Part shown: one piece after another, positions 11,113 through 27,455 of the stretch | How the letters are laid out: each line of letters begins with the position of its first letter | How positions within the stretch are numbered: the stretch's first letter is position 1 | From: a virus | Virus record (IMG/VR): IMGVR_UViG_3300017987_000286 | Coordinates: 1 to 28,317 of that record | Strand: one strand, 5' to 3' | Length of the DNA stretch: 28,317 nucleotides | Notes under the pieces: generated by a model | What the model saw: only the letters and a program-made list of their open reading frames with translations | Database searches by the model: none | What the model was told of the DNA's origin: nothing | Position numbers and translations under genes: made by a program

Positions 11113-11141
11113 TTGACACCTAGCACGCTAACTGCTATTGT
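11113..11141 (+). promoter_or_regulatory. Promoter P1 (sigma70-type), early region
   Basis: -35 TTGACA (11113-11118), 17-base spacer, -10 TATTGT (11136-11141). The first downstream gene starts at 11175. No hairpin leader follows, unlike P2 and P3. Confidence 0.8.
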
Positions 11142-11831: not shown

Positions 11832-11860
11832 TTGACACCGCCGCGCCGGTCTGCTATTAT
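11832..11860 (+). promoter_or_regulatory. Promoter P2 (sigma70-type)
   Basis: -35 TTGACA (11832-11837), exactly 17-base spacer, -10 TATTAT (11855-11860). It shares CTTGACACC and NCTGCTATT with P1. Predicted start near 11867, at the first base of a GGGGC/GCCCC hairpin. Confidence 0.85.
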
Positions 11861-11866
11861 TGTGGT

Positions 11867-11998
11867 GGGGCAGATGATGGCCGCCCCGAGAGCGCAAAGA
11901 GGACCCCGATGACAATCAAGGTTGTGAGCAGAGAGCAGCTACCGAGGTCCACCGCCTCATCAGCGGGAATGGGTTCCTCCCTCGGTAGCTGCTTTCTG
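11867..11998 (+). ncRNA. Element A: promoter-proximal structured RNA or attenuator leader
   Basis: The predicted P2 transcript opens with a hairpin (GGGGC 11867-11871 with GCCCC about 11883-11887), then an RBS (AAAGAGGA) and ATG 11909, then a perfect 14-bp hairpin: AGCAGCTACCGAGG at 11934-11947 with CCTCGGTAGCTGCT at 11980-11993, 32-base loop, followed by TTTCTGT. Length to the U-rich tail is about 130 bases. It matches the design of element B (14580-14725). It may be a terminated small RNA, or a leader whose terminator is disrupted when a ribosome translates from 11909. Confidence 0.55.
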
Positions 11999-13988: not shown

Positions 13989-14321
13989 ATGAGAACCGAT
14001 CCTGTTACATGGAGCGCCGAGGCCGAAGAGGCCCACCGCGAAGCCCAGGGGCGCCGCCGTGGGGAGCAAGGCGCTTGGGAGCGCGGGCCGACGGTGGCGG
14101 ACGGGAAGCTAGTCATCCCAAGCGACTTTTACAATGCGCGCGCCAGCGGCGTTTATAAGCGCCTCGGGATGCGCTATGATGACATCGGCAAGTGGTGGCA
14201 CCGCGACATCACGGTGCCGTTCAAGGGCCGCGTCTACAGCGCCGACGCGTGGCTGCGAGCCGCGCGCAAGGCGTACAAAGAGGTCTGGCCCACGTGGGAT
14301 CCGCAAGAGGGGGCATCATGA
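13989..14321 (+). CDS. Recombination-cassette protein, unknown function
   Basis: 110 residues, ATG 13989 after GGGGGTG. N-terminal region is Glu/Arg-rich; the C-terminal half (KLVIPSDFYNARASGVYKRLGM, YDDIGKWWHRDITVPFKGRVYS) is mixed alpha/beta with many aromatic residues. Not recognised. It follows the annealing protein by eight bases and overlaps the next gene by ATGA, so it is transcribed with them. Confidence 0.7.
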   Translation: MRTDPVTWSAEAEEAHREAQGRRRGEQGAWERGPTVADGKLVIPSDFYNARASGVYKRLGMRYDDIGKWWHRDITVPFKGRVYSADAWLRAARKAYKEVWPTWDPQEGAS

Positions 14322-14536
14322 ACATGACGATGAGCGCGTCTCGGTGCCCGCTGGGTGGCGAGTGTGGCGGCACGGGCTGGGTGTGGTATAGCGCACGCAA
14401 CGGTCCAGACGAGTTTGAGCCTGCCAGATACGAGGCGTGCGAGTGCAACCCACATGGCCGTGGTATGCCTGGCGAGCTGATGAATTATCTTGCCACGCCC
14501 CCGGTGCATATGGGGACACTGCCCGAGCCGTTTTGA
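14318..14536 (+). CDS. Small DnaJ-type zinc-finger-like protein
   Basis: 72 residues from ATG 14318 overlapping the previous stop. CPLGGECGGTGWVW (about 10-23) resembles one CxxCxGxG unit of a DnaJ zinc finger, and CECNPHGRG (about 41-49) could supply the second Cys pair. The rest is unremarkable. Last gene of the P2 operon; promoter P3 begins nine bases after its stop. Confidence 0.6.
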   Translation: MNMTMSASRCPLGGECGGTGWVWYSARNGPDEFEPARYEACECNPHGRGMPGELMNYLATPPVHMGTLPEPF

Positions 14537-14544
14537 GTTGGCGA

Positions 14545-14573
14545 TTGACACGCCTGCCGCCCGCGCGTATAAT
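14545..14573 (+). promoter_or_regulatory. Promoter P3 (consensus sigma70)
   Basis: -35 TTGACA (14545-14550), 17-base spacer, -10 TATAAT (14568-14573): a perfect consensus promoter. The predicted start near 14580 is the first base of a GCGCGG/CCGCGC stem. Confidence 0.9.
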
Positions 14574-14579
14574 GGTTGT

Positions 14580-14725
14580 GCGCGGTGCCCTGGCAAGGCA
14601 CGACAAAGCCGCGCGAGGAAAGAGAGACATGAATCGGTTATCTATCAGATACGAGCACGTGGCTGGGGCCGCTGCGGATGCCTTCCGTGGCGGAAGTCTC
14701 TCCCCCAGCCACGTGCTCGTTTTTG
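14580..14725 (+). ncRNA. Element B: structured small RNA or attenuator leader upstream of the initiator
   Basis: About 145 bases from the predicted P3 start to a T5 tract. The 5' end folds as GCGCGG(14580-14585)...CCGCGC with an inner GTGCC/GGCAC helix. An RBS (GAGGAAAGAGAG) and ATG 14629 follow. Then a perfect 17-bp stem (14652-14668 with 14703-14719, 18 bp with an A-U pair) encloses a 34-base loop that itself holds CTTCCG-tgg-CGGAAG, followed by TTTTTG. Same design as element A. Confidence 0.6.
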
Positions 14726-14739
14726 CTAGAAAGGGATAA
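14629..14739 (+). CDS. 36-residue leader peptide candidate spanning the element B hairpin
   Basis: ATG 14629 has a good RBS (GAGGAAAGAGAG, spacing about 8). The frame reads MNRLSIRYEHVAG... through the whole terminator-like hairpin and stops with TAA at 14737-14739, six bases before the GTG of the initiator gene. No similarity recognised. Its placement suggests that translating it would open the hairpin and let transcription continue; equally the frame may be accidental within a small RNA. Confidence 0.4.
   Translation: MNRLSIRYEHVAGAAADAFRGGSLSPSHVLVFARKG
14652..14724 (+). terminator. Long hairpin with T5 tract between P3 and the initiator gene
   Basis: 17 perfect base pairs, GC-rich, directly followed by TTTTT. 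It has every feature of an intrinsic terminator yet stands between a consensus promoter and the operon that promoter should drive, so a bypass or a terminated short RNA is expected. Confidence 0.75.
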
Positions 14740-14745
14740 GAGAGC

Positions 14746-15552
14746 GTGAGCAGAGGCAGCGCGTGGTGGACGCCCGTATACGAAGGGCTTTTTGACGCCA
14801 AGCACTGCCAGGCGATGGGTCAAGCTATCTGGCTTTATGGATGGATTCTCATGCGGGCACATGCAGCACAACGGAGAGGGTCTGTGGCGTATAACCATGA
14901 TGACGCCGCCGTTGCGCTATGTGTGTCGCGCAGCACAGTGCGCAACTGGTTCCGCACACTCCAAGAGCACGGGTATGTCAGTACACGCGCCAGGCACCCC
15001 TACCACCTAGAAGTGGCGGTGTCGAACTGGCGCCCCGTTGAGGAATGGCGTGACGCTAGGCAGTTGGGAGAAGGCCCAAAGTTTGACACTCATACCCGTG
15101 ACGGGCCCAGTGAGTGTCAGAGTGAGTGTCAGAGTCAGTGTCAAGATGCTGACACCCTATCTATATCTATAAAGCTAGAAAGCTATCTTTTCCCTACGGG
15201 TCGCAGCGGCGACGGGCCGCAAACGCTATCCGAGCTGTTTAGAGCCGTTTGGGAAAAGCTCCGCGATAGCACCAACTATCCTGCCGAGCTGCGCCACATA
15301 TACGCGCTGTGTTTTGGCGATGCTGGTGTGCCCTCGTTTGGGATGCTCGGAAGGGTTGCCAAGGCTGTAGGCGGGGCGGGTAGGCTGGCCGAGATCATGT
15401 GGCAGCTGAGCTCCAAGCCACCAACCGGGGATGTGATGGCCTATATTCTGGCAGCCTATGGGCGCAAGAGGCGGGGGGCAAAGGCGAGCAAGGCTGAGCG
15501 GCAAGAGGAAGCCGACGCGGTTATTGAGCGGTTCCTAGCAGGGGGAAACTGA
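14746..15552 (+). CDS. Replication initiator-like protein with winged-helix domain
   Basis: 268 residues from GTG 14746. Residues 5-95 (WWTPVYEGLFDAKHCQAMGQ; AYNHDDAAVALCVSRSTVRNWFRTL; HGYVSTRARHPYHLEV in pieces) form a winged helix-turn-helix of the kind at the N-terminus of phage replication proteins such as lambda O and DnaD-like initiators. A low-complexity middle (about 112-147, ECQSECQSQCQ) is encoded by the iterons and AT-rich tract of a probable origin. The C-terminal part is helical. The next gene resembles a helicase loader and overlaps by TGATG. Initiator role is inferred from domain type, internal iterons and neighbour. Confidence 0.7.
   Translation: MSRGSAWWTPVYEGLFDAKHCQAMGQAIWLYGWILMRAHAAQRRGSVAYNHDDAAVALCVSRSTVRNWFRTLQEHGYVSTRARHPYHLEVAVSNWRPVEEWRDARQLGEGPKFDTHTRDGPSECQSECQSQCQDADTLSISIKLESYLFPTGRSGDGPQTLSELFRAVWEKLRDSTNYPAELRHIYALCFGDAGVPSFGMLGRVAKAVGGAGRLAEIMWQLSSKPPTGDVMAYILAAYGRKRRGAKASKAERQEEADAVIERFLAGGN
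15082..15191 (+). other. Candidate replication origin: iterons plus AT-rich tract inside the initiator gene
   Basis: Three tandem 12-bp units, AGTGAGTGTCAG (15109-15120), AGTGAGTGTCAG (15121-15132) and AGTCAGTGTCAA (15133-15144). The core TGAGTGTCA occurs inverted as TGACACTCA at 15084-15092, and GTGTCA inverted at 15150-15155. An AT-rich tract follows at about 15157-15191 (CTATCTATATCTATAAAG...), striking in this GC-rich genome. Iterons then an unwinding tract inside the initiator gene is the arrangement of lambda ori. Confidence 0.7.
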
Positions 15553-16115
15553 TGGCGACAAAGGAAACCATTGCCAAGGCGGTTCGGCTGATTCAGGAAA
15601 ACTGGGCAGACCGCGAATTCAACCTAGAGCTGCAACTGCGCCTCTTTGAGCGGATGCTCATGGACCTGCCAGACGAAGCGGTGTTGGCGGCGGTGGCTCA
15701 GCGCGTTGCGGCAGATAATCCCTTCCTGCCCCGCGTTGGGGAGATCCGCCAAGCGGCGATCGACATTGCCAGCGGTGCCGACGCGGTGCTGCCAGCGCCC
15801 GAGGCCTGGGGCCAGCTGCTACGCTGGATACGGCGCTTTGGCGGCGGCTACAAAATCTGGACGGCGGAGGGGCCGATGGATCCGCCAGCATTGCCGCCGC
15901 TGGTGAAAAAGGCCGCCGACGCGGTGGGCGGGGTGAGCTACATCGGCATGAGCGAGAATCGGGCCGCCGACCGCGCGCGATTCATCGAGGCGTATGACAT
16001 TTTCGTGCAGCGTGAGCGGTCGCGCATTGGGATGCTGCCAGAGGTGAGGGGGGCACGGCGGGCGTTGGCGGCTGAGCGAGCGCGGTTGTTAGGCGACGGG
16101 AAAGAGGGGGCGTGA
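15552..16115 (+). CDS. Helicase loader-like protein (G39P-type)
   Basis: 187 residues; ATG overlaps the initiator stop (TGATG). Residues 1-75 (AKAVRLIQENWADREFNLEL, FERMLMDLPDEAVLAAVAQR, NPFLPRVGEIRQAAIDI) match the helical N-terminal pattern of SPP1 G39P-like loaders, including the conserved 'npFlPrvgEIr' turn; these bring the replicative helicase to the initiator-bound origin. The rest (WGQLLRWIRRFGGGYKIW; RARLLGDGKE) is helical and basic. No replicative helicase gene is present in the window, so a host DnaB or a gene elsewhere would be the partner. Confidence 0.7.
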   Translation: MATKETIAKAVRLIQENWADREFNLELQLRLFERMLMDLPDEAVLAAVAQRVAADNPFLPRVGEIRQAAIDIASGADAVLPAPEAWGQLLRWIRRFGGGYKIWTAEGPMDPPALPPLVKKAADAVGGVSYIGMSENRAADRARFIEAYDIFVQRERSRIGMLPEVRGARRALAAERARLLGDGKEGA

Positions 16116-16396
16116 TGAATCGAAGGGGGCGCGTGAATAGTGTTATCTGCGTATTGGCAGCGCTGGGAGAGCCACAGAATGCTGTATCGTTCGTGCGCGA
16201 GGATGGTAGCCTACGATATTTTGAGGGGGTTTCGAGGGCATCTATAAAGCGTCTGCACTCCCGTATCAGTGGCACATGGGCGTCGATGGGCCATAACGGA
16301 GCTGCATACATTTACGAAAACGGCTGGCAATGGCACCGAGAATACACGATACATGGAGATGTGGGGCGAGATATATCTGAGAGGGATTGGCAATGA
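16115..16396 (+). CDS. Small protein of unknown function, AT-richer than neighbours
   Basis: About 93 residues from ATG 16115 with RBS AAAGAGGGGG; GTG 16112 is an alternative that would overlap the previous stop. Mixed beta/alpha with ICVLAALGEPQNAVSFVRED and a Trp-rich C-terminal part (YIYENGWQWHREYTIHG). Lower GC than the flanking genes. Not recognised. Its stop overlaps the ATG of the Tat-exported hydrolase. Confidence 0.65.
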   Translation: MNRRGRVNSVICVLAALGEPQNAVSFVREDGSLRYFEGVSRASIKRLHSRISGTWASMGHNGAAYIYENGWQWHREYTIHGDVGRDISERDWQ

Positions 16397-17277
16397 ATCG
16401 CAGAGATTTTCTAGCGGGCGCGGGGGCGACGGCTCTTGGCCTGGCGGTGCCGCAGCTGTACCTGCCGCACGTTGTGGCGCGGCCGCCAGTGCCGACACCA
16501 ACGCTCACGCCGGCGCCGAGTTATGAGCCGCTTACCAAGGGCGCCGTCATCATCCGCGCATCGGCGGACGTGGCGACGCTGGGCGCTTCCTGGTGGTACA
16601 GCTACACGCTGGGGGCAACCTACGACGCGCCTGGGCACGTTGCCATGCTGCGTGACCCCGGCATCTACCATGCAGGCACCTGGCGCGACCTGCCGCACGG
16701 TGCGACGGTGCTGTTTTACAATGAGCCAAACTGCGCCGACCAGATGCACGGCGATGTGCTGAGCCCGTACGACGTGGCGCGCCACCTCCGCGCGGTGACG
16801 CTACAGCGGCCAGACCTGCGCATCGTGGGGCCAGCGCTGTTCACGGCGTGGGATGCGTGCGAGTGGTACGACCATCACCTGTTGGAAGCGTACCACGACC
16901 TCTACGGCGTCGGCAGCTGGCCGTGTGTTGCCAACGCGATCCACAGCATCCAGGGCACGACGGCCTGGCATGTGGACCGCATCCGCTGGGTCATGGACAT
17001 TTACGACCAGCACGGGTATGGCGAGACGCCAGTGTGGGTGACGGAGTACATGGGCGGGCCGTGGTGGGACTATGAGAGCCAAGCGACCATCGCGGCGGGC
17101 GTGTGGGAGTGGATGGCCGAGCAACCGCGCATCGAACGCGCGTGCTGGTTCCCTGCGCGGTGGTCAGATTCGTGGACGGATCCAGGCGGCGTTGGGTGGC
17201 TCGACCAGCGCCTGCTCGACGACGATGGCGAGTTGACGGTGGCAGGCGTGGCGTATGCGGCGCTAAGGGGGACATGA
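16393..17277 (+). CDS. Tat-exported glycoside hydrolase-like protein
   Basis: 294 residues from ATG 16393 (ATGA overlap). The N-terminus MNRRDFLAGAGATALGLAV is a clear twin-arginine signal (RRDFL, hydrophobic stretch, Ala-rich cleavage region near residue 28-30), followed by a Pro/Thr linker (RPPVPTPTLTPAPS). The mature part resembles a TIM-barrel glycoside hydrolase of the catalytic-core (Glyco_hydro_cc) style, with FYNEPN as the candidate acid/base and VTEYMGGPWW as the candidate nucleophile. Export in folded form would place it outside the host membrane. Unusual for a gene in the middle of a replication region; likely a cargo gene acting on the cell surface or wall. Substrate unknown. Confidence 0.75.
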   Translation: MNRRDFLAGAGATALGLAVPQLYLPHVVARPPVPTPTLTPAPSYEPLTKGAVIIRASADVATLGASWWYSYTLGATYDAPGHVAMLRDPGIYHAGTWRDLPHGATVLFYNEPNCADQMHGDVLSPYDVARHLRAVTLQRPDLRIVGPALFTAWDACEWYDHHLLEAYHDLYGVGSWPCVANAIHSIQGTTAWHVDRIRWVMDIYDQHGYGETPVWVTEYMGGPWWDYESQATIAAGVWEWMAEQPRIERACWFPARWSDSWTDPGGVGWLDQRLLDDDGELTVAGVAYAALRGT

Positions 17278-17615
17278 TGGGTGAGTCAGTCTATCAAGTC
17301 CAGGGGCGATATGGCAACGAGTGGGTTGACGTGCTGATCCAGTGGGCGGATGGCGAGGACAATCTCGTCGAGATTGATCCGCTAACACAATGCCTCTGCA
17401 CGTGGCCGGGCTCTAGTGAGGAGATAGAAGAGAGGCATCTGCGCGCGCTGGCGCTGCTAGGCGCGGCGGTAGCGCTGGCGCATCACGGCGACGACAGTCT
17501 GGTGACAAGCGAGACATACTGGCCCGATGGCACGCGTTGCGTGCGGTTGCCGCAAGACGTGCCGCAATGGGTTCGCGACGAAATCATGCGGTTGGTGCCG
17601 GAGGAGGTATCGTGA
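17274..17615 (+). CDS. Acidic protein, unknown function
   Basis: 113 residues; ATG 17274 overlaps the upstream stop (ATGA). An N-terminal beta-like part (SVYQVQGRYGNEWVDVLIQW) precedes a helical middle (RHLRALALLGAAVALAHHG) and an acidic end. Not recognised. The stop overlaps the following GTG. Confidence 0.65.
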   Translation: MMGESVYQVQGRYGNEWVDVLIQWADGEDNLVEIDPLTQCLCTWPGSSEEIEERHLRALALLGAAVALAHHGDDSLVTSETYWPDGTRCVRLPQDVPQWVRDEIMRLVPEEVS

Positions 17616-17860
17616 GCGAACACGAGCCGTGCCCGTTTTGCGGGCGGGCATCAGCCTTGTCGACGGTGCAGCACGCTAGTTTTGCAAGGCGTAGCCAGGC
17701 GCTGTGTCTGGCGTGTCTAGCGGCCGGCCCGTCGGTGCCCTGGTGGGAGTTTGATGTGGAGGGCGACCATCTGAATGACTTGCAGGCGGCGGACATTGAG
17801 GCCGAGTGCTGGCGGCGGTGGGATAAGAGAGTGGGGGGGGTATCGTGTATCAAGCAGTAA
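17612..17860 (+). CDS. Lar-like zinc-ribbon protein
   Basis: 82 residues from GTG 17612 behind GGAGGAGG. EPCPFCGRAS near the N-terminus, CLACLAAGPS in the middle and ECWRRWDKR at the end follow the 'PCPFCG...C..C.A.GP...W..R' pattern of Lar-type restriction-alleviation proteins. Rac Lar modulates type I restriction; most phage members are assigned by sequence only. The last residues overlap the SSB gene over 16 bases. Confidence 0.65.
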   Translation: MSEHEPCPFCGRASALSTVQHASFARRSQALCLACLAAGPSVPWWEFDVEGDHLNDLQAADIEAECWRRWDKRVGGVSCIKQ

Positions 17861-18261
17861 CAATTCTCGGCAATTTGGGTAGCGATCCAGAGTTGCGACG
17901 GACTCCCGACGGCACGCCGGTGACGTCGTTTAGCGTAGCGGTCAACAAGCGGTGGACCACCAAGGACGGGCAGCAGGGCGAGAAGACCGTTTGGTTCCGC
18001 GTGACGGCCTGGCGGCGGCTGGCGGAGACGTGTGCGGAGTATCTGGGCAAGGGCAGACTCGTGCTAGTCGAGGGCGAGATGCAGGAGGCGCGGGCGTATC
18101 AGGGCAAGGATGGCGAGTGGCGGGCCAGCTTGGAGCTGGTGGCGGATACCGTCAAGTTCGTCGGCGGGCGTGAGGAGGGTGGTACCACCAGCGGTACCAC
18201 CAATGGTACCATTAGCGGGGCGGACATCGCTATGGTGGCCGACGATGAGGTGCCGTTCTGA
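17845..18261 (+). CDS. ssb: Single-stranded DNA-binding protein
   Basis: 138 residues from GTG 17845. Typical SSB OB-fold: TILGNLGSDPELRRTPDGTPV, SFSVAVNK, EKTVWFRVTAWRRLAETCAEYLGKG and VLVEGEMQEARAYQGKDG in order, then a short linker with repeated GTT/GTI (three GGTACC-containing 12-base repeats in DNA) and the acidic tip ADDEVPF, which in bacterial SSB recruits repair and replication proteins. Coats single-stranded DNA during phage replication and recombination. Confidence 0.95.
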   Translation: MYQAVTILGNLGSDPELRRTPDGTPVTSFSVAVNKRWTTKDGQQGEKTVWFRVTAWRRLAETCAEYLGKGRLVLVEGEMQEARAYQGKDGEWRASLELVADTVKFVGGREEGGTTSGTTNGTISGADIAMVADDEVPF

Positions 18262-18289
18262 TGACTACGGCCTATGCACTGGATGGATC

Positions 18290-18619
18290 GTGACTCAATC
18301 CGATCTTGAGGCCGCGTTCGCGTTTCAGCTCCGCGTCGCTGGGTTGCCAGACGCGGAGCGGGAGTACATGTTCGCGCTGGAAGCCATGGGGCGGCGTTGG
18401 CGCTGGGACTTTTGCTGGCCCGACGCGATGCTGGCGGTGGAGCTGCAGGGCGGCGTCTGGGCGCGCGGCAGACACTCGCGCGGCGCGGGCTATATTGCGG
18501 ATTGCGAAAAATCGAACGCCGGGACTCTCTTGGGTTGGCGACTGCTGCGTTTCACGCGCGAGCAGGTAGAGAGCGGGTACGCGCTGGAGTGCGTGGAAAG
18601 AGCAATGGGAGGGGACTGA
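18290..18619 (+). CDS. Putative PD-(D/E)XK-type endonuclease
   Basis: 109 residues from GTG 18290. The segment RWRWDFCWPDAMLAVELQGG then WARGRHSRG and DCEKSN...GWRLLRFT has the order of restriction-endonuclease-like nucleases related to very-short-patch or DUF559-type proteins: an acidic residue (D40 or D45), E51-x-Q53, a basic Arg-His turn and a DxxK. The canonical ExK is ExQ here. A 10-codon reading frame (ATG 18261) joins the SSB stop to this GTG. Junction resolution or repair would suit its place after SSB, but this is inference. Confidence 0.65.
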   Translation: MTQSDLEAAFAFQLRVAGLPDAEREYMFALEAMGRRWRWDFCWPDAMLAVELQGGVWARGRHSRGAGYIADCEKSNAGTLLGWRLLRFTREQVESGYALECVERAMGGD

Positions 18620-18624
18620 TTGTC

Positions 18625-18837
18625 ATGACGGATGATAGGGCAACCAAATTCCGTGATCAGATGGGGTGGCCCCGAAAATGGTCGTCATACCGCCTAGGCG
18701 GTCTGACGCTCGGAGTTGCGTGGATGGGAAGCAGAACATGGGACGCATGGGCTCATGTCGTGGAGGGCCAGGGCGAGGCGCGACTAGACATGGGAATGCT
18801 AAGATTGTGGGTTATGTGGGGCAGCAATGACGCATGA
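18625..18837 (+). CDS. Small Trp-rich protein, unknown function
   Basis: 70 residues from ATG 18625, RBS GGGAGGGG about ten bases upstream. Many Trp and Gly residues (QMGWPRKWSSYRLGG, MLRLWVMWGSND). Not recognised; overlaps the start of the lysozyme-like gene. Confidence 0.6.
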   Translation: MTDDRATKFRDQMGWPRKWSSYRLGGLTLGVAWMGSRTWDAWAHVVEGQGEARLDMGMLRLWVMWGSNDA

Positions 18838-19213
18838 CGTAGCCGCCCTCCTACTCGCCGCTGGCCTCGTGACCATGCCGTGCGTGGTGGGCCAGATGGC
18901 GCGCGAGCGCGGCGTGGACGTGGGGCGCGCGCTGGCGACCGTCACGCTGGAAAGCGCGTGGGATGCCGACGCCGTGGGCGACAACGGTCTGGCGATTGGA
19001 TTGTGGCAATTCAGGGGGCGTGATAGCAGCAACACGTGGGCATGGCTGTGCGGCGTCACGGGACATCCCGAGTGGGCCGACGACGCGAACCGGCGCGATC
19101 CGGTGAAAACGACGATCGTAGCGTTGGACGCGATTGCGCTTGGTTATGGCGAGCACTGGCGCGGATGGATAGAGGCGGGGCAGAGAGAGGACGGGTGGAC
19201 GTGGGTTCGGTGA
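18827..19213 (+). CDS. Lysozyme-like / lytic transglycosylase-fold protein
   Basis: 128 residues. TVTLESAWDADAVGDNGLAIGLWQFR (read in two parts: LESAWDADAVGDNG, LAIGLWQF) has the catalytic Glu (E42) and the following G-LAIGLWQF turn of soluble lytic transglycosylases. The N-terminal LLLAAGLVTMPCVVGQMA is moderately hydrophobic but not a clear signal peptide. It lies in the early region far from the endolysin, followed by two short membrane proteins, so a wall-modifying role or a second lysis set is possible. Short for the family. Confidence 0.65.
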   Translation: MTHDVAALLLAAGLVTMPCVVGQMARERGVDVGRALATVTLESAWDADAVGDNGLAIGLWQFRGRDSSNTWAWLCGVTGHPEWADDANRRDPVKTTIVALDAIALGYGEHWRGWIEAGQREDGWTWVR

Positions 19214-19326
19214 AAGAGAAAGCGCTGATCGTGACGATCGTACTGATGAACCTGCTTAGCATCGCGGGCCTGTTCGCCGTGGTAGCCTACGCGCTGTGGT
19301 TCCTGGCAGAGAGGGGGATACTGTGA
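19210..19326 (+). CDS. 38-residue single-pass membrane protein
   Basis: GTG 19210 overlaps the upstream stop (GTGA). Basic start VKEKALIV, one helix (MNLLSIAGLFAVVAYALWFL), short polar end. Too small for family assignment. Follows the lysozyme-like gene, so a holin or spanin-like helper is conceivable. Confidence 0.55.
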   Translation: MKEKALIVTIVLMNLLSIAGLFAVVAYALWFLAERGIL

Positions 19327-19358
19327 ACCGCAGCGGGTCAATTGTGGGCGAGTGAACC
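19323..19358 (-). repeat. Bipartite operator-like motif (locus 2, inverted copy)
   Basis: On the + strand GTGAACC-N7-GTCAATT-N8-GTGAACC. Its reverse complement matches 9515-9545 at 23 of 31 positions. It fills the only gap (19327-19380) in this part of the early region, and a 10-codon GTG frame (19323) runs through it. Confidence 0.6.
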
Positions 19359-19380
19359 AAAATGGGACAAGGAGGCAACG

Positions 19381-19503
19381 GTGACTGAGGCAGAGGCGAT
19401 TGTTATGGCCGCGGAGCTATTGTCACGCGGGATGGCGGCGGTGGTGATCGGTCATACCCTGTTGATGGTCTTTGTGATCTTGATGACAAGGGGCCGCCGA
19501 TGA
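19381..19503 (+). CDS. 40-residue single-pass membrane protein
   Basis: GTG 19381 preceded by a consensus AAGGAGGCAAC. Acidic short N-terminus (VTEAEAIVMAAE), membrane helix GMAAVVIGHTLLMVFVILM, and a basic end TRGRR, suggesting the C-terminus inside. Stop overlaps the next ATG. Unknown function; second short membrane protein in the same small cluster. Confidence 0.6.
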   Translation: MTEAEAIVMAAELLSRGMAAVVIGHTLLMVFVILMTRGRR

Positions 19504-19916
19504 CTGAGGGCTATGACTATCGCGAGCACCTGGCCGAGATCAAACGGCTGAAACGGCGGTACAGCAAGGCCGACACCTGCGCGGCGTGTGGCGTGATCCG
19601 CGAGCTGCTACCTGTGGGGCCGCTGGAGCCTGCCGACAACGGCGTGTGCTGTGTGGGGTGCTTAGCCGAGTATCCCGAGCTGTGGGATATGGACCGCGAC
19701 GGCGTCCGCGTGTGGCTATGGCAGCATTGGCGCGTCTCATACGGCCACGGCAGGCCCGAGCAGCAAGCGGCGTCGGTGGCGCGGGCGTGGCTGCGAGTGC
19801 AGGCGCGTCGGGGGCGCGTGGGCGCGAGCATGGCCGACGTGGCGGCGGCAGCGTACGGGCTGACCAGGCCGTCGCGGGACAGGTTGCGGAAGTACGCCGC
19901 GGGGTTGGGGGGATGA
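19500..19916 (+). CDS. Zinc-binding protein, unknown function
   Basis: 138 residues; ATG overlaps the previous stop. A four-Cys site, CAACGV (about 27-31) and CCVGC (about 51-54), in the N-terminal half; the rest is Arg/Ala-rich and helical with RVWLWQHWRVSYGHG and a C-terminal basic helix (RPSRDRLRKYAAGLGG). Probably binds nucleic acid, but no family is recognised. Confidence 0.65.
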   Translation: MTEGYDYREHLAEIKRLKRRYSKADTCAACGVIRELLPVGPLEPADNGVCCVGCLAEYPELWDMDRDGVRVWLWQHWRVSYGHGRPEQQAASVARAWLRVQARRGRVGASMADVAAAAYGLTRPSRDRLRKYAAGLGG

Positions 19917-20155
19917 TGAACGAGCAAACGGTGTGGCTGTATGGATACGGGCCTGTCCGCAAGAGGTGGATCATCTACGGCGTAGAGGGGTCGCGCGCGG
20001 AGGCTATCCGAAAACTGATACCGCTCTGGGCGCGCAGCAAGCCGGGTGGCCCTCGGTTTTGGGTATGCCCAATGGTAGTCGGGGCGGACGCGCAAAAGTG
20101 GTCAGAACACTGGGCGAACAGCGAGTCGTGGTCTCGGGGCGATCGGCCCCAATGA
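19913..20155 (+). CDS. Small protein, unknown function
   Basis: 80 residues; ATG 19913 overlaps the previous stop, next in-frame ATG at 19916. Mixed: VWLYGYGPVRKRWIIYGVEG strands, RAEAIRKLIPLWARS helix, then Trp-rich tail. Not recognised; sits directly before the methyltransferase fusion. Confidence 0.6.
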   Translation: MMNEQTVWLYGYGPVRKRWIIYGVEGSRAEAIRKLIPLWARSKPGGPRFWVCPMVVGADAQKWSEHWANSESWSRGDRPQ

Positions 20156-20196
20156 CCTACTGGCAGAGCGGTGACGTGAGAGACAAGGGAGATGAT

Positions 20197-21258
20197 ATGG
20201 GTTATCAGTATCAACTTTTGCCCGACTTGACCCGTGACGAATATGCGACGCTCAAGGCCGACATTGCCAAGCGCGGCGTTTTGGTGCCGGTAGAGTACGA
20301 CGAGGCCGGCGCAATCTTGGACGGCCATCATCGCGTAAGGGCCTGTCGGGAGCTAGGCATTGCGGACTGGCCGCGCGTCGTGCGCGATGGCATGACAGAG
20401 CAACAGAAACGCGAGCATGTGATTCGGCTGAATCTGGCGCGGCGGCATCTGAACGAGAGCCAGCGAGCGATGGTAGCGGCGAAGCTAGTGAACGCCCCGG
20501 CGCATCGGCCACAAGAAAGTAGATCAATTGATCCACTTATCACACAACCCGAAGCGGCTGAGCTATTGAACGTCTCTGTACCATCGGTGAAGCGCGCTCG
20601 CGTCGTGCTCGAGGAGGCGCCGCCAGAGATGGTCGAGAAGGTGGAGCGCGGCGAGATGGCTGTGAGCCGGGTGGCAAAAGAGGTCCGGCGCGAACAACAG
20701 CGAGAGCGCAACCGCGCGCTGGTAGAGCAAACATCGCCTCCTGAGATTGTGGCCCCAGAGACGCGGTTTGTTACCATCGTACTAGACCCGCCGTGGGACT
20801 GGGGTGACGAGGGCGACGCCGACCAGTTTGGGAGAGCGCGTCCGACCTATCACACGATGGGTATAGACGAGGTACGGGCGCTGCCCGTGGGCGATCTAGC
20901 GGCAGACAACGCGCATCTCTATCTGTGGATCACTAATCGCTCGCTCCCCAAAGGCTTTGACCTGCTAGAGGCTTGGGGGTTCCGCTATGTCACGATGCTC
21001 ACTTGGTGCAAGCCACACTTTGGCATGGGCAACTATTATCGGGGGAGCACCGAGCAAGTATTGTTTGGCGTCCGTGGCTCACTGGGGCTGCTAAGGCACG
21101 ATGTGGGGACATGGTTTGAAGCACCGCGTGGCGACAAGCATAGCGCTAAGCCAATCGCGTTCTATGAGATGGTAGAGACGTGTAGTCCCGGCCCATGGCT
21201 AGAGATGTTTGCTAGAAGCGAGCGGCCTGGCTGGCGGGCGTGGGGGGCGGAAGCGTGA
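20197..21258 (+). CDS. ParB-like domain fused to MT-A70 adenine methyltransferase
   Basis: 353 residues from ATG 20197 (RBS AAGGGAG); ATG 20152, overlapping the previous stop, is an alternative that adds 15 residues. Residues 1-60 are a ParB/sulfiredoxin-type domain with ILDGHHRVRAC; 85-170 is a ParB-style helix-turn-helix (TQPEAAELLNVSVPSVKRAR). Residues 190-353 are an MT-A70 methyltransferase: DPPW at 197-200, HLYLWITN, TMLTWCKP and a terminal GWRAWG. DPPW is the N6-adenine methyltransferase signature, so it probably methylates phage DNA, for instance against host restriction, with the N-terminal part giving DNA binding. Substrate sequence cannot be read from the gene. Confidence 0.85.
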   Translation: MGYQYQLLPDLTRDEYATLKADIAKRGVLVPVEYDEAGAILDGHHRVRACRELGIADWPRVVRDGMTEQQKREHVIRLNLARRHLNESQRAMVAAKLVNAPAHRPQESRSIDPLITQPEAAELLNVSVPSVKRARVVLEEAPPEMVEKVERGEMAVSRVAKEVRREQQRERNRALVEQTSPPEIVAPETRFVTIVLDPPWDWGDEGDADQFGRARPTYHTMGIDEVRALPVGDLAADNAHLYLWITNRSLPKGFDLLEAWGFRYVTMLTWCKPHFGMGNYYRGSTEQVLFGVRGSLGLLRHDVGTWFEAPRGDKHSAKPIAFYEMVETCSPGPWLEMFARSERPGWRAWGAEA

Positions 21259-21770
21259 GATATTATGACTTTGCCGAACGACTAGAGTGGTCGGAAGGAT
21301 TCTTGGACGGCGGCATTGCGCGTGTGCTTCAAGATCGAATCCCTGGATGCTACTCGGTGGAAAAGGCATCAGAGGCGGGAGACCGCGCTGGGACAGATTA
21401 TTGGGCCTTGCGTCACAAATTGCCGTCACTATCGATAGACGTCAAAGTACGCAGTACCGATTGGGCTGTGCGTGGCGAAGATGACTTGGCGCTAGAGACA
21501 TGGAGCGTTGTCGACAAAAAGCCTGGATGGACGCGCGACGACGGCAAGCGCACTGATTATGTGCTCTGGTATTGGACAGATACCGGGCGGTTCGTGCTAA
21601 TATCATTCCCCGCTCTATGTCGCGTGTTTGGTTGCTATTGGTCAGAGTGGCGCAAGCAATTTAAGAGCGCAAGGCAACAGTCTGGCGGATGGCAAAGCGA
21701 GTGCGTGTTTGTGCCGCGCGAGCTGGTGCTTGAAAAGCTAAAGGCCTGGTCGAATGGCATAGCGCTATAA
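21255..21770 (+). CDS. Putative nuclease-fold protein, unknown function
   Basis: 171 residues; GTG 21255 overlaps the methyltransferase stop. AGTDYWALRHKLPSLSIDVKVR has a D-x(n)-D-x-K spacing of PD-(D/E)XK nucleases (LSIDVK), followed by DDLALETWSV and DYVLWYWTDTGRF. I recognise the pattern as widespread in phages without a settled function. Pairing with a methyltransferase could mean a modification-linked system, or just adjacency. Confidence 0.6.
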   Translation: MRYYDFAERLEWSEGFLDGGIARVLQDRIPGCYSVEKASEAGDRAGTDYWALRHKLPSLSIDVKVRSTDWAVRGEDDLALETWSVVDKKPGWTRDDGKRTDYVLWYWTDTGRFVLISFPALCRVFGCYWSEWRKQFKSARQQSGGWQSECVFVPRELVLEKLKAWSNGIAL

Positions 21771-21783
21771 CAGGAGGTGACGC

Positions 21784-21996
21784 CTGACCACACACATACA
21801 GATCGAGCGGGCGGACATGCGCGTAGACCTGGAGCGGGCGACGGCGCAGCTCACGACCAAGCAGAGGACGGCGCTATGGCTGTGGGCGGTGTGCGGGTGG
21901 ACGCAAGCCGACATCGCTGAGCGGCACGGGGTAGGGCAGCCTGCTATCTCTATGAGGATACGACGGGCGCGGGAGACTCTAACGGGCGAGACGTGA
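21784..21996 (+). CDS. Sigma-70 region 4-like HTH protein, apparent CTG start
   Basis: 70 residues if initiated at CTG 21784; 59 residues from ATG 21817. A consensus AGGAGGTGA (21772-21780) sits at ideal distance from CTG and far from any ATG. LTTKQRTALWLWAVCGWTQA-DIAERHGVGQPAISMRI-RRARETL is a helix-turn-helix like sigma-70 region 4. Last gene of the early block; its position before the packaging genes would suit a late-gene regulator, but that is inference. The stop codon TGA (21994-21996) is in the loop of a terminator hairpin. Confidence 0.7.
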   Translation: MTTHIQIERADMRVDLERATAQLTTKQRTALWLWAVCGWTQADIAERHGVGQPAISMRIRRARETLTGET

Positions 21997-22013
21997 TAAT
22001 CTCGCCCGCTTTT
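21983..22013 (+). terminator. Rho-independent terminator overlapping the end of the HTH gene
   Basis: CGGGCGAGA (21983-21991), loop of eight bases, TCTCGCCCG (22000-22008), then CTTTT. The gene's stop codon is in the loop, so a translating ribosome would cover the left arm. Confidence 0.85.
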
Positions 22014-22040
22014 GGTTAGTAAGGAGTAGAGAGGTAGACT

Positions 22041-22259
22041 ATGCGCCCACGCTGCGCTATCTGCGATAGGCCAATCAGCCCGCCTTGGTGGGTATGCAAC
22101 ACCTGCGAACTGCGATATGGGCTGACTGGCGACTATCGGGACTGGCCTGCATGGGCGCAAGCGCTGGTGGCATCCGAGAAGCGCAACCGCCGCCGCCCCG
22201 AGGTGATCCTGGTGGGCGGCATCGCGGAGCTTGAGCGGCTGTGTGATCGAGACAGTTGA
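22041..22259 (+). CDS. Small zinc-finger-like protein
   Basis: 72 residues with two nearby RBS-like runs (AAGGAG, GAGAGG) and ATG 22041. CAICDRP and CNTCELRYG give a four-Cys site about 14 residues apart, then WPAWAQALVASEK and an Arg-rich stretch. Similar to small zinc proteins seen next to packaging genes; function not known. First gene after the terminator, with no convincing promoter in 22014-22040. Confidence 0.65.
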   Translation: MRPRCAICDRPISPPWWVCNTCELRYGLTGDYRDWPAWAQALVASEKRNRRRPEVILVGGIAELERLCDRDS

Positions 22260-22261
22260 TG

Positions 22262-22323
22262 TGGCGGGGCTCTGGTGAGCGCGCGGGCGAATGACCAGCG
22301 CGGGTTCGATTCCTGCCCCGTCA
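22262..22323 (+). other. tRNA-like element (T-arm and acceptor), D/anticodon part not normal
   Basis: TGGCGGG (22262-22268) pairs with CCCGTCA (22317-22323), seven bp with one G-U. Between them GCGGG-TTCGATT-CCTGC (22300-22316) is a textbook T-arm with the conserved TTCRA loop. The space left for D and anticodon arms is about 10 bases too short, and only a CTGGT/ACCAG stem (22272-22276 with 22294-22298) can form. No encoded CCA. Either a decayed tRNA gene, a tRNA-mimic, or an attachment site copying a host tRNA 3' end; no integrase is in the window. Confidence 0.5.
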
Positions 22324-22366
22324 CCTGAGCGCCCAGACGCGGGTAGACCTGGTACCCATCGGCCTC

Positions 22367-22795
22367 GTGCCGCGTGGCGCTCTTGGCTCGCCGCCACCGC
22401 GTACCGAAATCACGCCTGTACGGCGTAGTCGCCGTGAAACTCGGCTAGGACGCGGGGTGGCGGGCGCTATTGCAGAAAGCGGAACAGCGCCGGGGGTTAT
22501 TGCAAAAGTGGCCCAAAGTGATAATAAGGTTGGCCGACCCGTCTCGCGCGCCGAGGCGCTAGAGATTGCGCGCAAGGCCATGGATGACGCCGAGCGTGCT
22601 AGGAAAGCGCTGGCGTTGCTCGATTCATGGCGTGCCGAAGCTGCCAGCCACGAGCCGCGCGAGTGCGTGGAGCTGGTGTGCGCCAACGCCGGCAAGTTGT
22701 CGCCGGAAGCTGTGGACGCGCTGATGGTGGCCGAGTGGTGGCTGGCCGACCGCTTCCCGTGGCTGGACGTGAGGCTGAGGATGGGGGACGAGTGA
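22367..22795 (+). CDS. Protein upstream of terminase genes, unknown function
   Basis: 142 residues from GTG 22367; the frame stays open back to 22295, so the start is uncertain. The N-terminal 55 residues are Arg/Pro/Gly-rich (RTEITPVRRSRRETRLGRG). The C-terminal 80 are helical with AEALEIARKAMDDAERARKA and a Trp pair (AEWWLADRFPWLDV). Not recognised; its stop overlaps the following GTG. Given its site ahead of TerS it may be a packaging accessory. Confidence 0.6.
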   Translation: MPRGALGSPPPRTEITPVRRSRRETRLGRGVAGAIAESGTAPGVIAKVAQSDNKVGRPVSRAEALEIARKAMDDAERARKALALLDSWRAEAASHEPRECVELVCANAGKLSPEAVDALMVAEWWLADRFPWLDVRLRMGDE

Positions 22796-23016
22796 GCGAC
22801 GCTATCACGTTCGAGGCCGTGATACCATCCAATATGTCGGCACTGCGCATTCACGGCGAAAGCGGGATGCGCATCACGCTGGACGTTGACGAAACCAACC
22901 TGCCCGAGGCGCTCAAGCTGGTGCTGTGGCGCGAGCGGGTGTTACGAGTGACGGTAGAGCCTGTAGGTGGCGATGGAAGAGCTGAGCAAGGAAAATCCAG
23001 GACTATCCATATCTGA
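22792..23016 (+). CDS. Small beta-rich protein, unknown function
   Basis: 74 residues; GTG 22792 overlaps the previous stop (GTGA). FEAVIPSNMSALRIHGESGM and RITLDVDETNLPEALKLVLW, then RERVLRVTVEP: two strands, a helix and a strand, a small fold common in phage replication or packaging neighbourhoods. Overlaps the start of TerS by about 44 bases. Confidence 0.65.
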   Translation: MSDAITFEAVIPSNMSALRIHGESGMRITLDVDETNLPEALKLVLWRERVLRVTVEPVGGDGRAEQGKSRTIHI

Positions 23017-23416
23017 CCAGCTGGCGTCCGCGCTCGCCCAACTGTCGACAGACCAGATCAGATTCGTGGTGGCGCGCCAGGAATGTGCTACCGACAAAGA
23101 GGCAGCGGAGGCCATCGGCATCAAGCCTGACACAGTGTACCACTGGCCCGATGCGGTCAAAGAGGCCGTACGCCTGATGGCGAGCGACGGCATTGTGGTG
23201 GCGACACACGTCCGACGGCGAAACCTCGCCAAAGCGATGTTGGCAAAGGTCGCCGGCTTGGATTCTATGGACGAGAACGTGAGGCAGCGCGTCGCTACCG
23301 AGATCATCGAATGGGAGATGGGCAAGGCCAAGCAGCCGATTGACCAGCACACCGAGCATAGCGGCTCCGTCGTCGTGGTGAGTTGGGATGATGCCACAAC
23401 GCCGAGTGAAAATTGA
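22973..23416 (+). CDS. Terminase small subunit-like protein
   Basis: 147 residues from ATG 22973 (GTG 22967 possible). Residues 20-65 (QLSTDQIRFVVARQECATDKEAAEAIGIKPDTVYHWPDAVK, in parts) form the helix-turn-helix of phage small terminases, 'F-v-x-x...d-x-x-A-A-x-x-x-G-i-x-x-x-T-v-y-x-W'. The rest is a helical oligomerisation region. It recognises the packaging site and feeds DNA to the large subunit, whose gene starts 29 bases inside its 3' end. Confidence 0.75.
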   Translation: MEELSKENPGLSISDQLASALAQLSTDQIRFVVARQECATDKEAAEAIGIKPDTVYHWPDAVKEAVRLMASDGIVVATHVRRRNLAKAMLAKVAGLDSMDENVRQRVATEIIEWEMGKAKQPIDQHTEHSGSVVVVSWDDATTPSEN

Positions 23417-24593
23417 TGCCAACCCACACGCAGAGCAGGCCATCGTGCACGAGCACCCCGCCAGATTCAAGGTGCTGGCGTGTGGCCGCCGGTGGGGTAA
23501 GACGCGCTTGGGGGTCAACGAGTGCCTAGACGTGGCCAGCAAGGGCGGGCGCGCGTGGTGGATCGCCCCGTCGTACAAGATGAGCGAAGTGGGCTGGCGG
23601 CCGTTGCGCCAGCTTGGGGCGCGTATCGGCGCGGAGATCCGCCGCGTGGATCGCCAGGTGATTCTGCCTGGCGGCGGCGAGGTGCAGGTGCGTTCGGCCG
23701 ACGACCCGCAGAGCCTGCGCGGCGAGGGCCTGGACTATGTGGTGATCGACGAATGCGCGTTCGTGCCCGAGGACGCGTGGATCGAGTCACTGCGCCCGGC
23801 GCTATCGGATCGCCTTGGCAGGGCGATGTTTATCTCGACGCCCAAGGGCATGAACTGGTTCTGGCGTGCGTGGCAGCGGGGCCGAGGCGACGACGCCGAT
23901 TGGCGGTCATGGGCGTTCCCCACCAGTGGCAACCCGTATATCAACAAGGGCGAAATCAAGGCGGCCAAGGACCTGCTCCCAGAGCGCGTGTTCGCGCAGG
24001 AGTATCTGGCGCAGTTCCTGGACGACGCTGGCGGCGTCTTTCGCCGTGTTATGGACGCGGCTACGGGTACCGAGCAGGCGCCCGAGGCTGGACACCAGTA
24101 CGTCGTCGGCGTGGACTGGGGCAAGTCGAACGACTTTACGGTGCTCACGGTCTTGGACGCGGCCAGCAAAACAGAGGTGTACTCTGACCGATTCAACCAG
24201 ATCGACTATGCCGTACAGCGGGGCCGCCTGATGGCCGTATGCGAGCGGTACAGCCCGACGGCCATCATCGCCGAGAGCAACGCAATGGGCGAGCCGATTA
24301 TCGAGCAGCTACAGCGCGACGGGTTGCCTGTGACGGGGTTCACGACCACCAACGCGACCAAGGCGGCAGCCATCGAGGCGCTAGCGCTGGCGTTTGAGCG
24401 GAGCGATATCACCATCATCAACGATCCGACCACGGTTGCCGAGCTGCAGGCGTATGAGCTGGATCGCACGCCGTCTGGCATGGTCAAGTATGGCGCGCCC
24501 GAGGGGATGCACGACGACTGCGTGATGGCGTTGGCGCTGGCGTGGCAAGGGGTAGAGGACAGCGGGCCACTCCTATTATGGAGCGAGGAATGA
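23388..24593 (+). CDS. terL: Terminase large subunit
   Basis: 401 residues. ATPase: Walker A GRRWGKT (33-39), Walker B YVVIDE (117-122, D121, E122), and the coupling motif ISTPKG (149-154). Nuclease: GVDWG with D243, AES with E296 and HDDC with D376/D377 complete the RNase H-like acidic set. This is the motor and headful or site-specific nuclease of DNA packaging. Slightly shorter than the usual 450-500 residues but with all motifs. ATG 23388 or 23391; overlaps TerS, and its stop overlaps the portal ATG. Confidence 0.95.
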   Translation: MMPQRRVKIDANPHAEQAIVHEHPARFKVLACGRRWGKTRLGVNECLDVASKGGRAWWIAPSYKMSEVGWRPLRQLGARIGAEIRRVDRQVILPGGGEVQVRSADDPQSLRGEGLDYVVIDECAFVPEDAWIESLRPALSDRLGRAMFISTPKGMNWFWRAWQRGRGDDADWRSWAFPTSGNPYINKGEIKAAKDLLPERVFAQEYLAQFLDDAGGVFRRVMDAATGTEQAPEAGHQYVVGVDWGKSNDFTVLTVLDAASKTEVYSDRFNQIDYAVQRGRLMAVCERYSPTAIIAESNAMGEPIIEQLQRDGLPVTGFTTTNATKAAAIEALALAFERSDITIINDPTTVAELQAYELDRTPSGMVKYGAPEGMHDDCVMALALAWQGVEDSGPLLLWSEE

Positions 24594-26074
24594 ACAAAGA
24601 CTTTGTGTTCGTGGCCAAGTCCAATGCCCTCAAGTCGGGCGCGGTCTCTATGAACGCCGTCGATTGGCAGACGATGTTCGGCGGCCTAGAGAAGGAGTCG
24701 CTAGACGAGCACGAGGCGTTCCAGGTAGTCGCGTGGGTGTCGCGCTGCGTGAAACTACGCGCCAACGCACTCGCGGCTGTGCCAGCGGTCGTTTACGGCG
24801 GCAAGGGCGAGGACGCGGAGGTCGTCGAGTGGGAGTTCGCCGATTCGCTGTATGACATGCTATGGATGACCGAGGCGACGTTGCAGCTATACGGCGCCGG
24901 ATACTGGTTGCGCGAGCGCAACATGGTCAAGGACAAGGGGTTCCGCTGGCTGGCGCCCGCGACCATCAAGCCGAAATATACCGCCGACCGCGGCCTGGAC
25001 TATTTCGAGCGCCGCGTGCCCAACAAGCCGCCCATCCGGTTGGAGCCGGTCGAGGAGCTGCTGTACGTCTGGGAGCCGAACCTGGAGGCCGAGGTAGGGC
25101 CAGGCAAGGGCTGGGTGAGCGTGGTGCTCACCGAGGGCGGCGTGGCCCAGGCGCAGAACCAGTTCGCGGCCGGGTTCTTCGAGCGCGGCGCGATTCCGGC
25201 GGTGCTGCTGAGCGTTGAGGGCAACCCGCCACCCGAGGAGCTAAACCGCCTCCAGCAATGGTGGCGTCGGCTGCTACAGGGCAACCGCAAGGCGTGGGAG
25301 ACGGTGGCGGTGAGGGCCACGGTCAAGCCGGAGGTCATCGGCTACCCGACCGACCAACTGGCGATGCCCGAGCTGATGGACATTGTGCGTTCGCAGATTG
25401 CCGTGGCCGCCGGTGTGCCGCAGACGATGCTAGAGGACGCGGCCAACTATGCCACGGCCAAAGAGCACCACCAGGCGTTCTATACCGAGACCATCGTACC
25501 AGAGGCCATCCGCGTCGAGGCGTGGCTGAATCGCCAGCTATTCGAGCCGCAAGGCTTGCGCATCGTGCTGGACTGGCAGTCGCTGGACATCTTCCAAGAG
25601 GACGAAGCCGAACGCGCCGGCGCATTGCGCGAGATGGTGGCCGCGGGCGTGCCAGTGGACCTAGCTATGGAAATGCTGGGCATGGACCTGCCCAACAACA
25701 TGACCTATGACGAGCTTAGGGCCAGGCTGGAGGTGGCGGCCGAGCAGCGGGCCGAGCGTGCGCGCGAGACGGCCGAGGCCAACGCGGCGGCCAACACCGA
25801 CAACCAGGGGCGGCCCGAGATTGCGCTACCGCAGCCGCCGACGCGGGCCTACCCGCCGCAACAGCGCGAGGAGTTGCGCCGCTGGCAGCGCAAGGCGTTG
25901 CGGGCCGTCAAGGACGGCAAGGGCGGCGGCGTTAGCTTTATCACCGACCAGGTGGCCGAGGACATTCAATCGGCGGTACGCGATCGGCTGGCGATGGCCG
26001 CCACCGAGGAGGAGGTGAAAGCGGCCTTTGAGCCGCCCTTTCGCGACGACGAAGCAGCCGCGGCGTATCCGTAG
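24590..26074 (+). CDS. Portal protein (HK97-family)
   Basis: 494 residues from ATG 24590, overlapping TerL (ATGA). VAWVSRCVKLRANALAAVP at the start, WMTEATLQLYGAGYWLRER, VGPGKGWVSVVLTEGG, the FAAGFFERGAIPAVLL segment and QIAVAAGVPQTMLEDAANYA-TAKEHHQAFY follow in the order of Phage_portal family proteins; forms the dodecameric DNA channel at the head vertex. The last 90 residues are an Arg/Ala/Gln-rich and acidic tail (QQREELRRWQRKALRAVKDG), longer than the core fold needs. Overlaps the next gene by 47 bases. Confidence 0.9.
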   Translation: MNKDFVFVAKSNALKSGAVSMNAVDWQTMFGGLEKESLDEHEAFQVVAWVSRCVKLRANALAAVPAVVYGGKGEDAEVVEWEFADSLYDMLWMTEATLQLYGAGYWLRERNMVKDKGFRWLAPATIKPKYTADRGLDYFERRVPNKPPIRLEPVEELLYVWEPNLEAEVGPGKGWVSVVLTEGGVAQAQNQFAAGFFERGAIPAVLLSVEGNPPPEELNRLQQWWRRLLQGNRKAWETVAVRATVKPEVIGYPTDQLAMPELMDIVRSQIAVAAGVPQTMLEDAANYATAKEHHQAFYTETIVPEAIRVEAWLNRQLFEPQGLRIVLDWQSLDIFQEDEAERAGALREMVAAGVPVDLAMEMLGMDLPNNMTYDELRARLEVAAEQRAERARETAEANAAANTDNQGRPEIALPQPPTRAYPPQQREELRRWQRKALRAVKDGKGGGVSFITDQVAEDIQSAVRDRLAMAATEEEVKAAFEPPFRDDEAAAAYP

Positions 26075-26759
26075 CAATGGGGAGCGCGATCCCAACGCCA
26101 AGGACAAGGACCTTGCCGAGGCCGAGTTGCTAGACGTGCTGATTCGGCGGCTGCGCGCCCAAGGGCGCGACGTGATGCGGATATTGGGTGACCCGCCGGA
26201 CCTTAACAACCTAACGGCCGAGTTCTGGGCCAGCGAGCACGGCAAGTTGGTGGCGGACCTGCGGCCTCGTGTGGAGCGCATGGTGCTGGCATCGATTGAG
26301 GGCGCTGGCCAGTACGTGCCCGTGGTGTGGGATATACCCGTCATCGCGCGCGAGGCGGTGGCATGGGCACGTAGTTACACGACAGAGTGGCTGGCCGGGC
26401 TGGATGTGAACACGCAGGCGCTTGTGCGCGACAAAGTATCGCTGTTCCTGGAGACGCCCGGCATGACCATTGGCGACTTGCGGCAGAGCCTGACGCCAGC
26501 ATTCGGCGAGGCTAGGGCGCAGGCCATCGCGGTGACGGAGACGACGCGGGCGTTTGCGGCGGGCAACCAGATCGTACAGCGCGAGCTTGCCAAGGCGGGC
26601 ATCCAGATGGAGCGGTTCTGGAACACGAGCAACGACGAGCTGGTGTGTGACATATGCGGCCCCAACGACGGCAAGTTTGAGTCAGAGGGGTGGACGGTTG
26701 GCGAGATACCCGCCCACCCACGATGCCGGTGCTGGGAGACGCTGGGGGTGCGAGGGTGA
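26028..26759 (+). CDS. Mu F-like minor head protein (SPP1 gp7 family)
   Basis: 243 residues from TTG 26028 behind GGAGGTG; the first 15 residues overlap the portal gene and may not be real. C-terminal half (about 145-243) has TIGDLRQSLTPAF...ARAQAIAVTETTRAFAAGN and the closing ERFWNTSNDELVCDICGPND-GKF...HPRCRC, the Cys/His signature of phage Mu protein F-like domains. Such proteins bind the portal and help head assembly or DNA delivery. Followed directly by a gp10-like gene. Confidence 0.85.
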   Translation: MSRPFATTKQPRRIRSNGERDPNAKDKDLAEAELLDVLIRRLRAQGRDVMRILGDPPDLNNLTAEFWASEHGKLVADLRPRVERMVLASIEGAGQYVPVVWDIPVIAREAVAWARSYTTEWLAGLDVNTQALVRDKVSLFLETPGMTIGDLRQSLTPAFGEARAQAIAVTETTRAFAAGNQIVQRELAKAGIQMERFWNTSNDELVCDICGPNDGKFESEGWTVGEIPAHPRCRCWETLGVRG

Positions 26760-27226: not shown

Positions 27227-27233
27227 GGGGCTT

Positions 27234-27455
27234 ATGACAAGGTTAGTAGAGGTGGCCTATGGATGGGTAGACCTGGATGAGGTCGCCGCAATAACGAAAT
27301 ATGGAATTCCGGATTATCCGGGCCATACCTATCTAGAGGTCTATACAAAGGGCGGGACGCGCGTCGAGGCAAAAGCCGACAGCCCAGGAGGGCGGGCGAT
27401 TTTGGACTGGGCAGAGAGGAACGCAGAACAAGGGAGGGACGGCGAAACAGAGTGA
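27234..27455 (+). CDS. Small protein, unknown function
   Basis: 73 residues from ATG 27234 with RBS AGGGGG; an upstream ATG at 27201 is in frame but inside the previous gene. VAYGWVDLDEVAAITKYGIP then YLEVYTKGGTRVEAKADSPGG: short beta strands with a helix, a form common in small phage proteins that show residues interacting with ligand as 'W-x-D-L-d-x-V-a-a-I'. No function assigned. Confidence 0.6.
   Translation: MTRLVEVAYGWVDLDEVAAITKYGIPDYPGHTYLEVYTKGGTRVEAKADSPGGRAILDWAERNAEQGRDGETE

Follow-up and report, generated by a model that had tools for sequence, protein, structure and literature searches.

A candidate transcription attenuator ahead of the replication initiator gene of an uncultured phage

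What is the role of a perfect promoter whose transcript would run into a long hairpin immediately before a replication initiator gene? This arrangement, hereafter element B, lies together with a RecT-like gene and an SSB gene in the early region of the window, the 28,317-base viral IMG/VR record. The name of the RecT-like gene was read from its sequence, and a family search gave no match for it. A second arrangement of similar design, element A, lies further upstream (Table 1). Promoter-proximal RNA switches that control phage replication are known in few systems, e.g., P4.

Table 1. Features of elements A and B in the window (all on the + strand)
Feature	Position	Strand	Basis
Promoter A, TTGACA-17-TATTAT	11832..11860	+	match 11/12
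Leader A, resembles leader B	11861..11933	+	alignment score 42 vs shuffles 30.1 +/- 4.7, p 0.003
Hairpin A, stem 14 bp, loop 32 nt, followed by TTTCT	11934..11993	+	inverted-repeat search
Promoter B, sigma70-type TTGACA-17-TATAAT	14545..14573	+	match to consensus 12/12
5' hairpin of leader B, at estimated +1	14580..14614	+	MFE fold
SD-like GAGGAAAGAGAG and ATG 14629; includes X2 GAGAGAC (14622-14628)	14615..14631	+	sequence
36-codon ORF of B, passes through the hairpin, coding doubtful	14629..14739	+	codon score -0.03; frame differs from element A
Long hairpin of B, 5' arm (A)	14651..14668	+	inverted-repeat search
Loop of hairpin B, 34 nt, ending in X2' GTCTCTC (14696-14702)	14669..14702	+	inverted repeat and fold
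3' arm of hairpin B (A') with the T tract, predicted to act as an intrinsic terminator	14703..14724	+	sequence, inverted repeat, fold
Replication initiator/DnaD-like helicase loader, gene proposed as attenuated	14746..15552	+	phrog_7498, E 9e-11

Between positions 9000 and 20000, 11 promoter sites were found where 2.8 would be expected, and promoter B (TTGACA 14545-14550, 17-nt spacer, TATAAT 14568-14573) is the only one to match at all 12 positions. No inverted repeat of the window is longer than its hairpin, and the hairpin of element A comes second. The stem of B is a perfect 18 bp (14651-14668/14703-14720), extends with mismatches to 28-nt arms, and ends in a base that doubles as the first T of the T5 tract (14720-14724); from the end of the T tract it is 21 nt to the initiator GTG at 14746. 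The RNA from 14580 to 14745 folds at -80.5 kcal/mol compared with -57.8 +/- 4.6 kcal/mol for shuffles (z -4.9; 0/200 shuffles). The ATG stands 22 nt 5' of the hairpin, and its frame closes at a TAA (14737-14739) that is separated from the GTG by 6 nt. Every part listed for B in an earlier note on this DNA, from the perfect promoter and 5' hairpin to the SD and ATG, long hairpin and T5, is present in the sequence, and the coordinates agree with its observation that the short ORF runs through the predicted terminator and stops six bases before the initiator. With a promoter, then a predicted intrinsic terminator, then a gene start on the same strand, B is laid out as an intrinsic attenuator. A third strong promoter of the window (11113-11141, TTGACA-17-TATTGT, with a TG ahead of the -10), 5' of the gene at 11175, is followed by no long hairpin and provides an ordinary early promoter for comparison.

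The earlier note had also proposed that A and B form a pair whose promoter-leader-terminator architecture is kept while the stems change, and this holds: the two leaders are similar and share the blocks ATG..AATC..GGTT..CAGA, set apart by 2-nt indels, unlike the arms and loops, in which comparison of A with B found no similarity. One point needs correction: in A the frame is not a short ORF. The ATG of A (11909) is 25 nt before its hairpin and opens a frame that continues to 12307 through a Cys-rich protein; the frame after the ATG differs between A and B because the 2-nt indels separate the shared blocks. Judged from these alignments, A is probably a diverged second copy of the B leader at another early gene, and one control could therefore set both.

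The window from 14196 to 28317 is 99.99% identical to IMGVR_UViG_3300029267_002418 (14,122 bases, 2 mismatches), which represents this phage in a second metagenome and is the only near relative found in a search for covariation of B itself. MAGs with relatives of the terminase belong partly to Chloroflexota, and no homologues of the initiator were found in prophages across 400 genomes from the phylum of a Chloroflexi MAG. Two further genes of the window are worth recording: a predicted secreted protein (16387-17277) with MNRRDFLAGAGATALGLAVP near its N-terminal start and a Tat-like signal, unusual for a phage early region, and a protein whose ParB-like N-terminus is joined to a domain resembling adenine methyltransferases (20076-21258; read from sequence). 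The gene that follows the unit at L073 283-347 begins in a similar ParB-like way.

Does this arrangement recur? The comparison set consisted of contigs linked through their terminase, RecT-like and initiator proteins (2.24 Mb, 165 strong terminators), and promoter scores, here and in the window, assume an E. coli-like sigma70, from which the consensus of the host may differ. Ordinary operon borders would put promoters preferentially downstream of terminators. In the 2.24 Mb, promoters of at least 10/12 within 0-100 nt of a terminator lie upstream of it in 26 cases and downstream in 4. A hairpin scoring at least 24 occurs within 100 nt of 9.3% of the promoters of at least 11/12 (n = 75, all loci) compared with 0.27% of random positions, and A and B rank first and second among these 75 for the hairpin within 100 nt. 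Complete units with a promoter of at least 10/12 number 17, against 1 per shuffled set (two sets).

The units fall before different genes according to loop size. Short-loop units stand 5' of portal and prohead genes (L008, L015, L018, L030, L060, and L062); those before the portal gene at L008 1448-1581, L015 4024-4157, and L018 2747-2878 have the leader core GTGGCCGGCAGGT...ACCTGCAACGT in common and differ in the rest of leader and stem. Large-loop units (loops 22-53 nt, arms 13-31 bp) stand mainly 5' of replication genes, namely initiators (L092, L120, L122, L123, and L142), an HNH gene plus initiator (L064 and L073), an HNH gene (L143), and a Toprim-type primase named from its sequence (L154). 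Second units precede other early genes, as in A, L180 (GIY-YIG gene), and L073 (ParB-like gene). U tracts are poor in the hairpins of some relatives and present in many other units. The earlier note had named the absence of paired elements from any relative as grounds for refutation; pairs were found in three other viral contigs (L073; G035, with L122 and L180; G010, with L142 and L143), and the counts per phage are lower bounds because the contigs are mostly fragments. A scan of the initiator family, made after the idea had formed, found a unit in 6 of 13 distinct loci and none in the other 7. It added L201 to the units; the promoter there matches 12/12 and the leader:loop z is -5.0. No such unit was found in G001, the closest terminase relative, where the initiator start overlaps the preceding ORF, or in cultured phages whose initiator or terminase is related. 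Two other RNA features were seen among these contigs: an Rfam int-alpA RNA (RF02996, 39.9 bits, E 0.00012) at L064 10623-10686, on a contig that also has an interleaved unit, and tandem hairpins made of GGTATTGCTGCGATACC repeats at L177 12062-12200, which are unlike the promoter-leader-terminator units.

Many large-loop units have a further property, from which an interleaved-leader subclass is defined in this analysis by the order X1-X2-A-X1'-X2'-A', where A and A' are the arms of the terminator. Leader and terminator loop are complementary, with a duplex z of -3 to -9 in most large-loop units, and 10 real units compared with 0 shuffled ones combine a leader:loop z of -3 or lower with a promoter scoring 9/12 or better; the thresholds and the X tests were chosen with the data in view, except for L201 and the shuffles. 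Complementarity is specific to the unit: when the leaders and loops of six units from three phages are combined, each leader gives a z of -3.7 to -7.8 with its own loop and mostly about 0 with the others. The four homologous leaders L122, L123, L073, and L180 have a CGTTTTGTTT-like sequence in common, and of the 28 columns of their X1:X1' pairs, 18 show changes in both partners, a count that leans towards pairing since the pairs came from energy-based duplexes. A second helix, X2:X2', occurs in crossing order above chance across the unit set (Fisher p 5e-5). Predicted folds made before A' is copied contain leader:loop pairs in 17/17 units and those at full length contain A:A' in 15/17, elements A and B included, and a co-transcriptional race at the terminator is therefore predicted, in which X:X' might be displaced or might persist as a pseudoknot.

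The early leader:loop pairs are short in the window units (8 bp in element A, 7 bp in B), and the duplex energy of neither exceeds that of shuffles (z about 0 for B and +1.6 for A). In B, the GAGAGAC at the SD matches the last 7 nt of the loop (7 bp anchored, p about 0.01) and the crossing arrangement has a z of -1.6 with 4/60 shuffles as good, both by tests picked after looking. The longest unbroken leader:loop run in A is only 5 bp (p 0.18-0.36). A and B fit the layout of the subclass, in which a hairpin with a long stem and a large loop follows the promoter at 29-90 nt and precedes a replication or early gene. By its anatomy B would be an attenuator, and that it belongs to the interleaved subclass is plausible.

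These observations lead to the reading, held here at a probability of roughly 0.55, that B is the attenuator leader of the replication module, with read-through set by a race between X:X' and A:A' as proposed for its relatives. The strong early-type promoter would start an RNA of ~145 nt, with termination predicted at the long hairpin and its U tract, immediately 5' of the initiator, so that the initiator and the genes after it would be expressed from the read-through fraction only. In the relatives, X1 and X2 of the leader would pair first with the future terminator loop (X1' and X2') and delay the terminator stem, which could form only once A' has been copied. Read-through would be the outcome of this race, tipped by whatever binds the leader, and a regulator of it presumably exists. 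B may work likewise through its short X2:X2' pair, which spans the SD. Counting against this reading are the chance-level leader:loop duplexes of the window units, the poor U tracts of some relatives, and the absence of a unit from G001 and from 7 of the 13 initiator-family loci. The anatomy, the recurrence and the site before replication genes can be read from the sequences, as can, in the relatives, the leader:loop complementarity and compensatory changes. More tentatively, and at clearly less than even odds, the units may constitute a new structural class of phage attenuator RNAs, A and B being diverged members. Two segments of the leader and one arm of the terminator would each find a partner among three segments downstream, with the order of the partners preserved (X1-X2-A-X1'-X2'-A'), and the result would be a co-transcriptional strand-exchange switch that meters the initiator and a second early gene of the same phage. 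If true, a recurrent, covarying leader before the initiators of uncultured phages would be an RNA-only timing device. The whole unit is ~180 bp, so it is directly testable with purified RNA polymerase.

Could ribosomes rather than RNA pairing open the terminator? The earlier note raised such a mechanism: ribosomes translating the 36-codon ORF would melt the hairpin and then start again at the initiator. B does have an SD, an ATG, and an ORF that crosses the hairpin and stops 6 nt from the GTG, and X2 covers that SD. Against this, the reading frame shifts between the A and B leaders and the codon usage of the ORF is weak and ambiguous (-0.03, with 0.28 +/- 0.21 for the in-frame and -0.29 +/- 0.17 for the out-of-frame reference). 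The other units have leaders of 29-74 nt in which inspection revealed no comparable short ORF, and the conserved leader ORF that marks leader-peptide attenuators is thus lacking across A, B, and the relatives. Translation of the short ORF is therefore improbable as the mechanism; coupling in B itself is still possible because the stop codon is so close to the initiator start, but it would not be the principle common to the units. Another proposal is an ordinary terminator close to the promoter that a protein antiterminator overrides, of the lambda pR'/tR' type with Q; leader:loop pairing would then be incidental and a phage protein would set the timing. The short-loop units before portal and prohead genes fit it, and leader motifs common within one phage (L122 and L180 in G035; A and B) would suit a common factor. 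It leaves the unit-specific, covarying leader:loop complementarity unexplained, the window proteins that were scanned include no Q-like protein, and we consider it rather doubtful.

Alternatively, the terminated RNA might be the product, a stable small RNA whose target in trans would be the read-through mRNA or the sister unit, in the manner of IsrK in Gifsy-1 or CI RNA in P4. A discrete RNA is indeed predicted, the phage RNA IsrK sets a precedent for terminated and read-through isoforms from one promoter (PMC4825925), and in G010 the L143 leader also pairs with the L142 loop (z -3.3). In the window and in the two remaining phages with two units, pairing from one sister unit to the other does not rise above chance, which makes this an unlikely account. 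The least probable reading replaces gene control by a role in replication itself, as an origin or as an element that supplies an RNA primer (ColE1 RNA II-like): the units adjoin initiators and the transcript is highly structured, but second copies precede other early genes (A; L180, GIY-YIG; L073, ParB-like) and many units have U tracts. A type III toxin-antitoxin system (pseudoknot RNA, terminator, toxin) was considered and rejected, the downstream genes being replication and nuclease genes and no tandem repeats being seen.

How does attenuation by such a leader compare with known systems? The known kind is transcription attenuation, and B looks like a variant of it. Rfam covariance models gave no match for the window units at gathering or permissive thresholds, phage and sRNA families included; a supposed resemblance to the "skipping-rope" RNA likewise yielded no match, and the subclass has no Rfam entry that was found. 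This is in line with the earlier note, which had called the pair a candidate for an undescribed regulatory system. Its judgment that lambda oop and HK022 put are only partial parallels also stands, as the likeness is weak and the same unit scan found no unit in the lambda, P4, and HK022 genomes. The HK022 put RNA forms a structure at the 5' end of an early phage transcript and is associated with termination. It makes polymerase ignore later terminators, whereas the B unit ends in its own predicted terminator. Lambda pR'/tR' resembles B in having a strong promoter, then a terminator, ahead of its genes, but depends on Q protein and on a specific site in the DNA and has no sequence relation to B. 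Plasmids of the pIP501/pT181 type attenuate the mRNA of a replication initiator within its leader, as B is proposed to do. In pIP501 this is achieved via antisense RNA (PMC4981023); that RNA comes from the opposite strand, whereas the B leader has no good opposite-strand promoter, the best (14596-14569) matching only 9/12. In Gifsy-1, the IsrK prophage promoter yields both a short RNA that is terminated and an mRNA made by read-through; alternative structures occur, and a small ORF is coupled to the gene that follows (PMC4825925). IsrK, compared here by description, is like B in this layout but controls anrP and antQ rather than replication. The P4 system, in which pairing of a leader RNA causes premature termination before phage replication genes (PMC4825925), shares with the model proposed for B both the pairing in an untranslated leader (PLE; seqA, CI RNA, and seqC immunity) and the position of termination. 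The two differ in that the processed CI RNA of P4 acts in trans on seqA and seqC, whereas a unit of the window type has a single intrinsic terminator, with X and X' in cis on either side of one of its arms.
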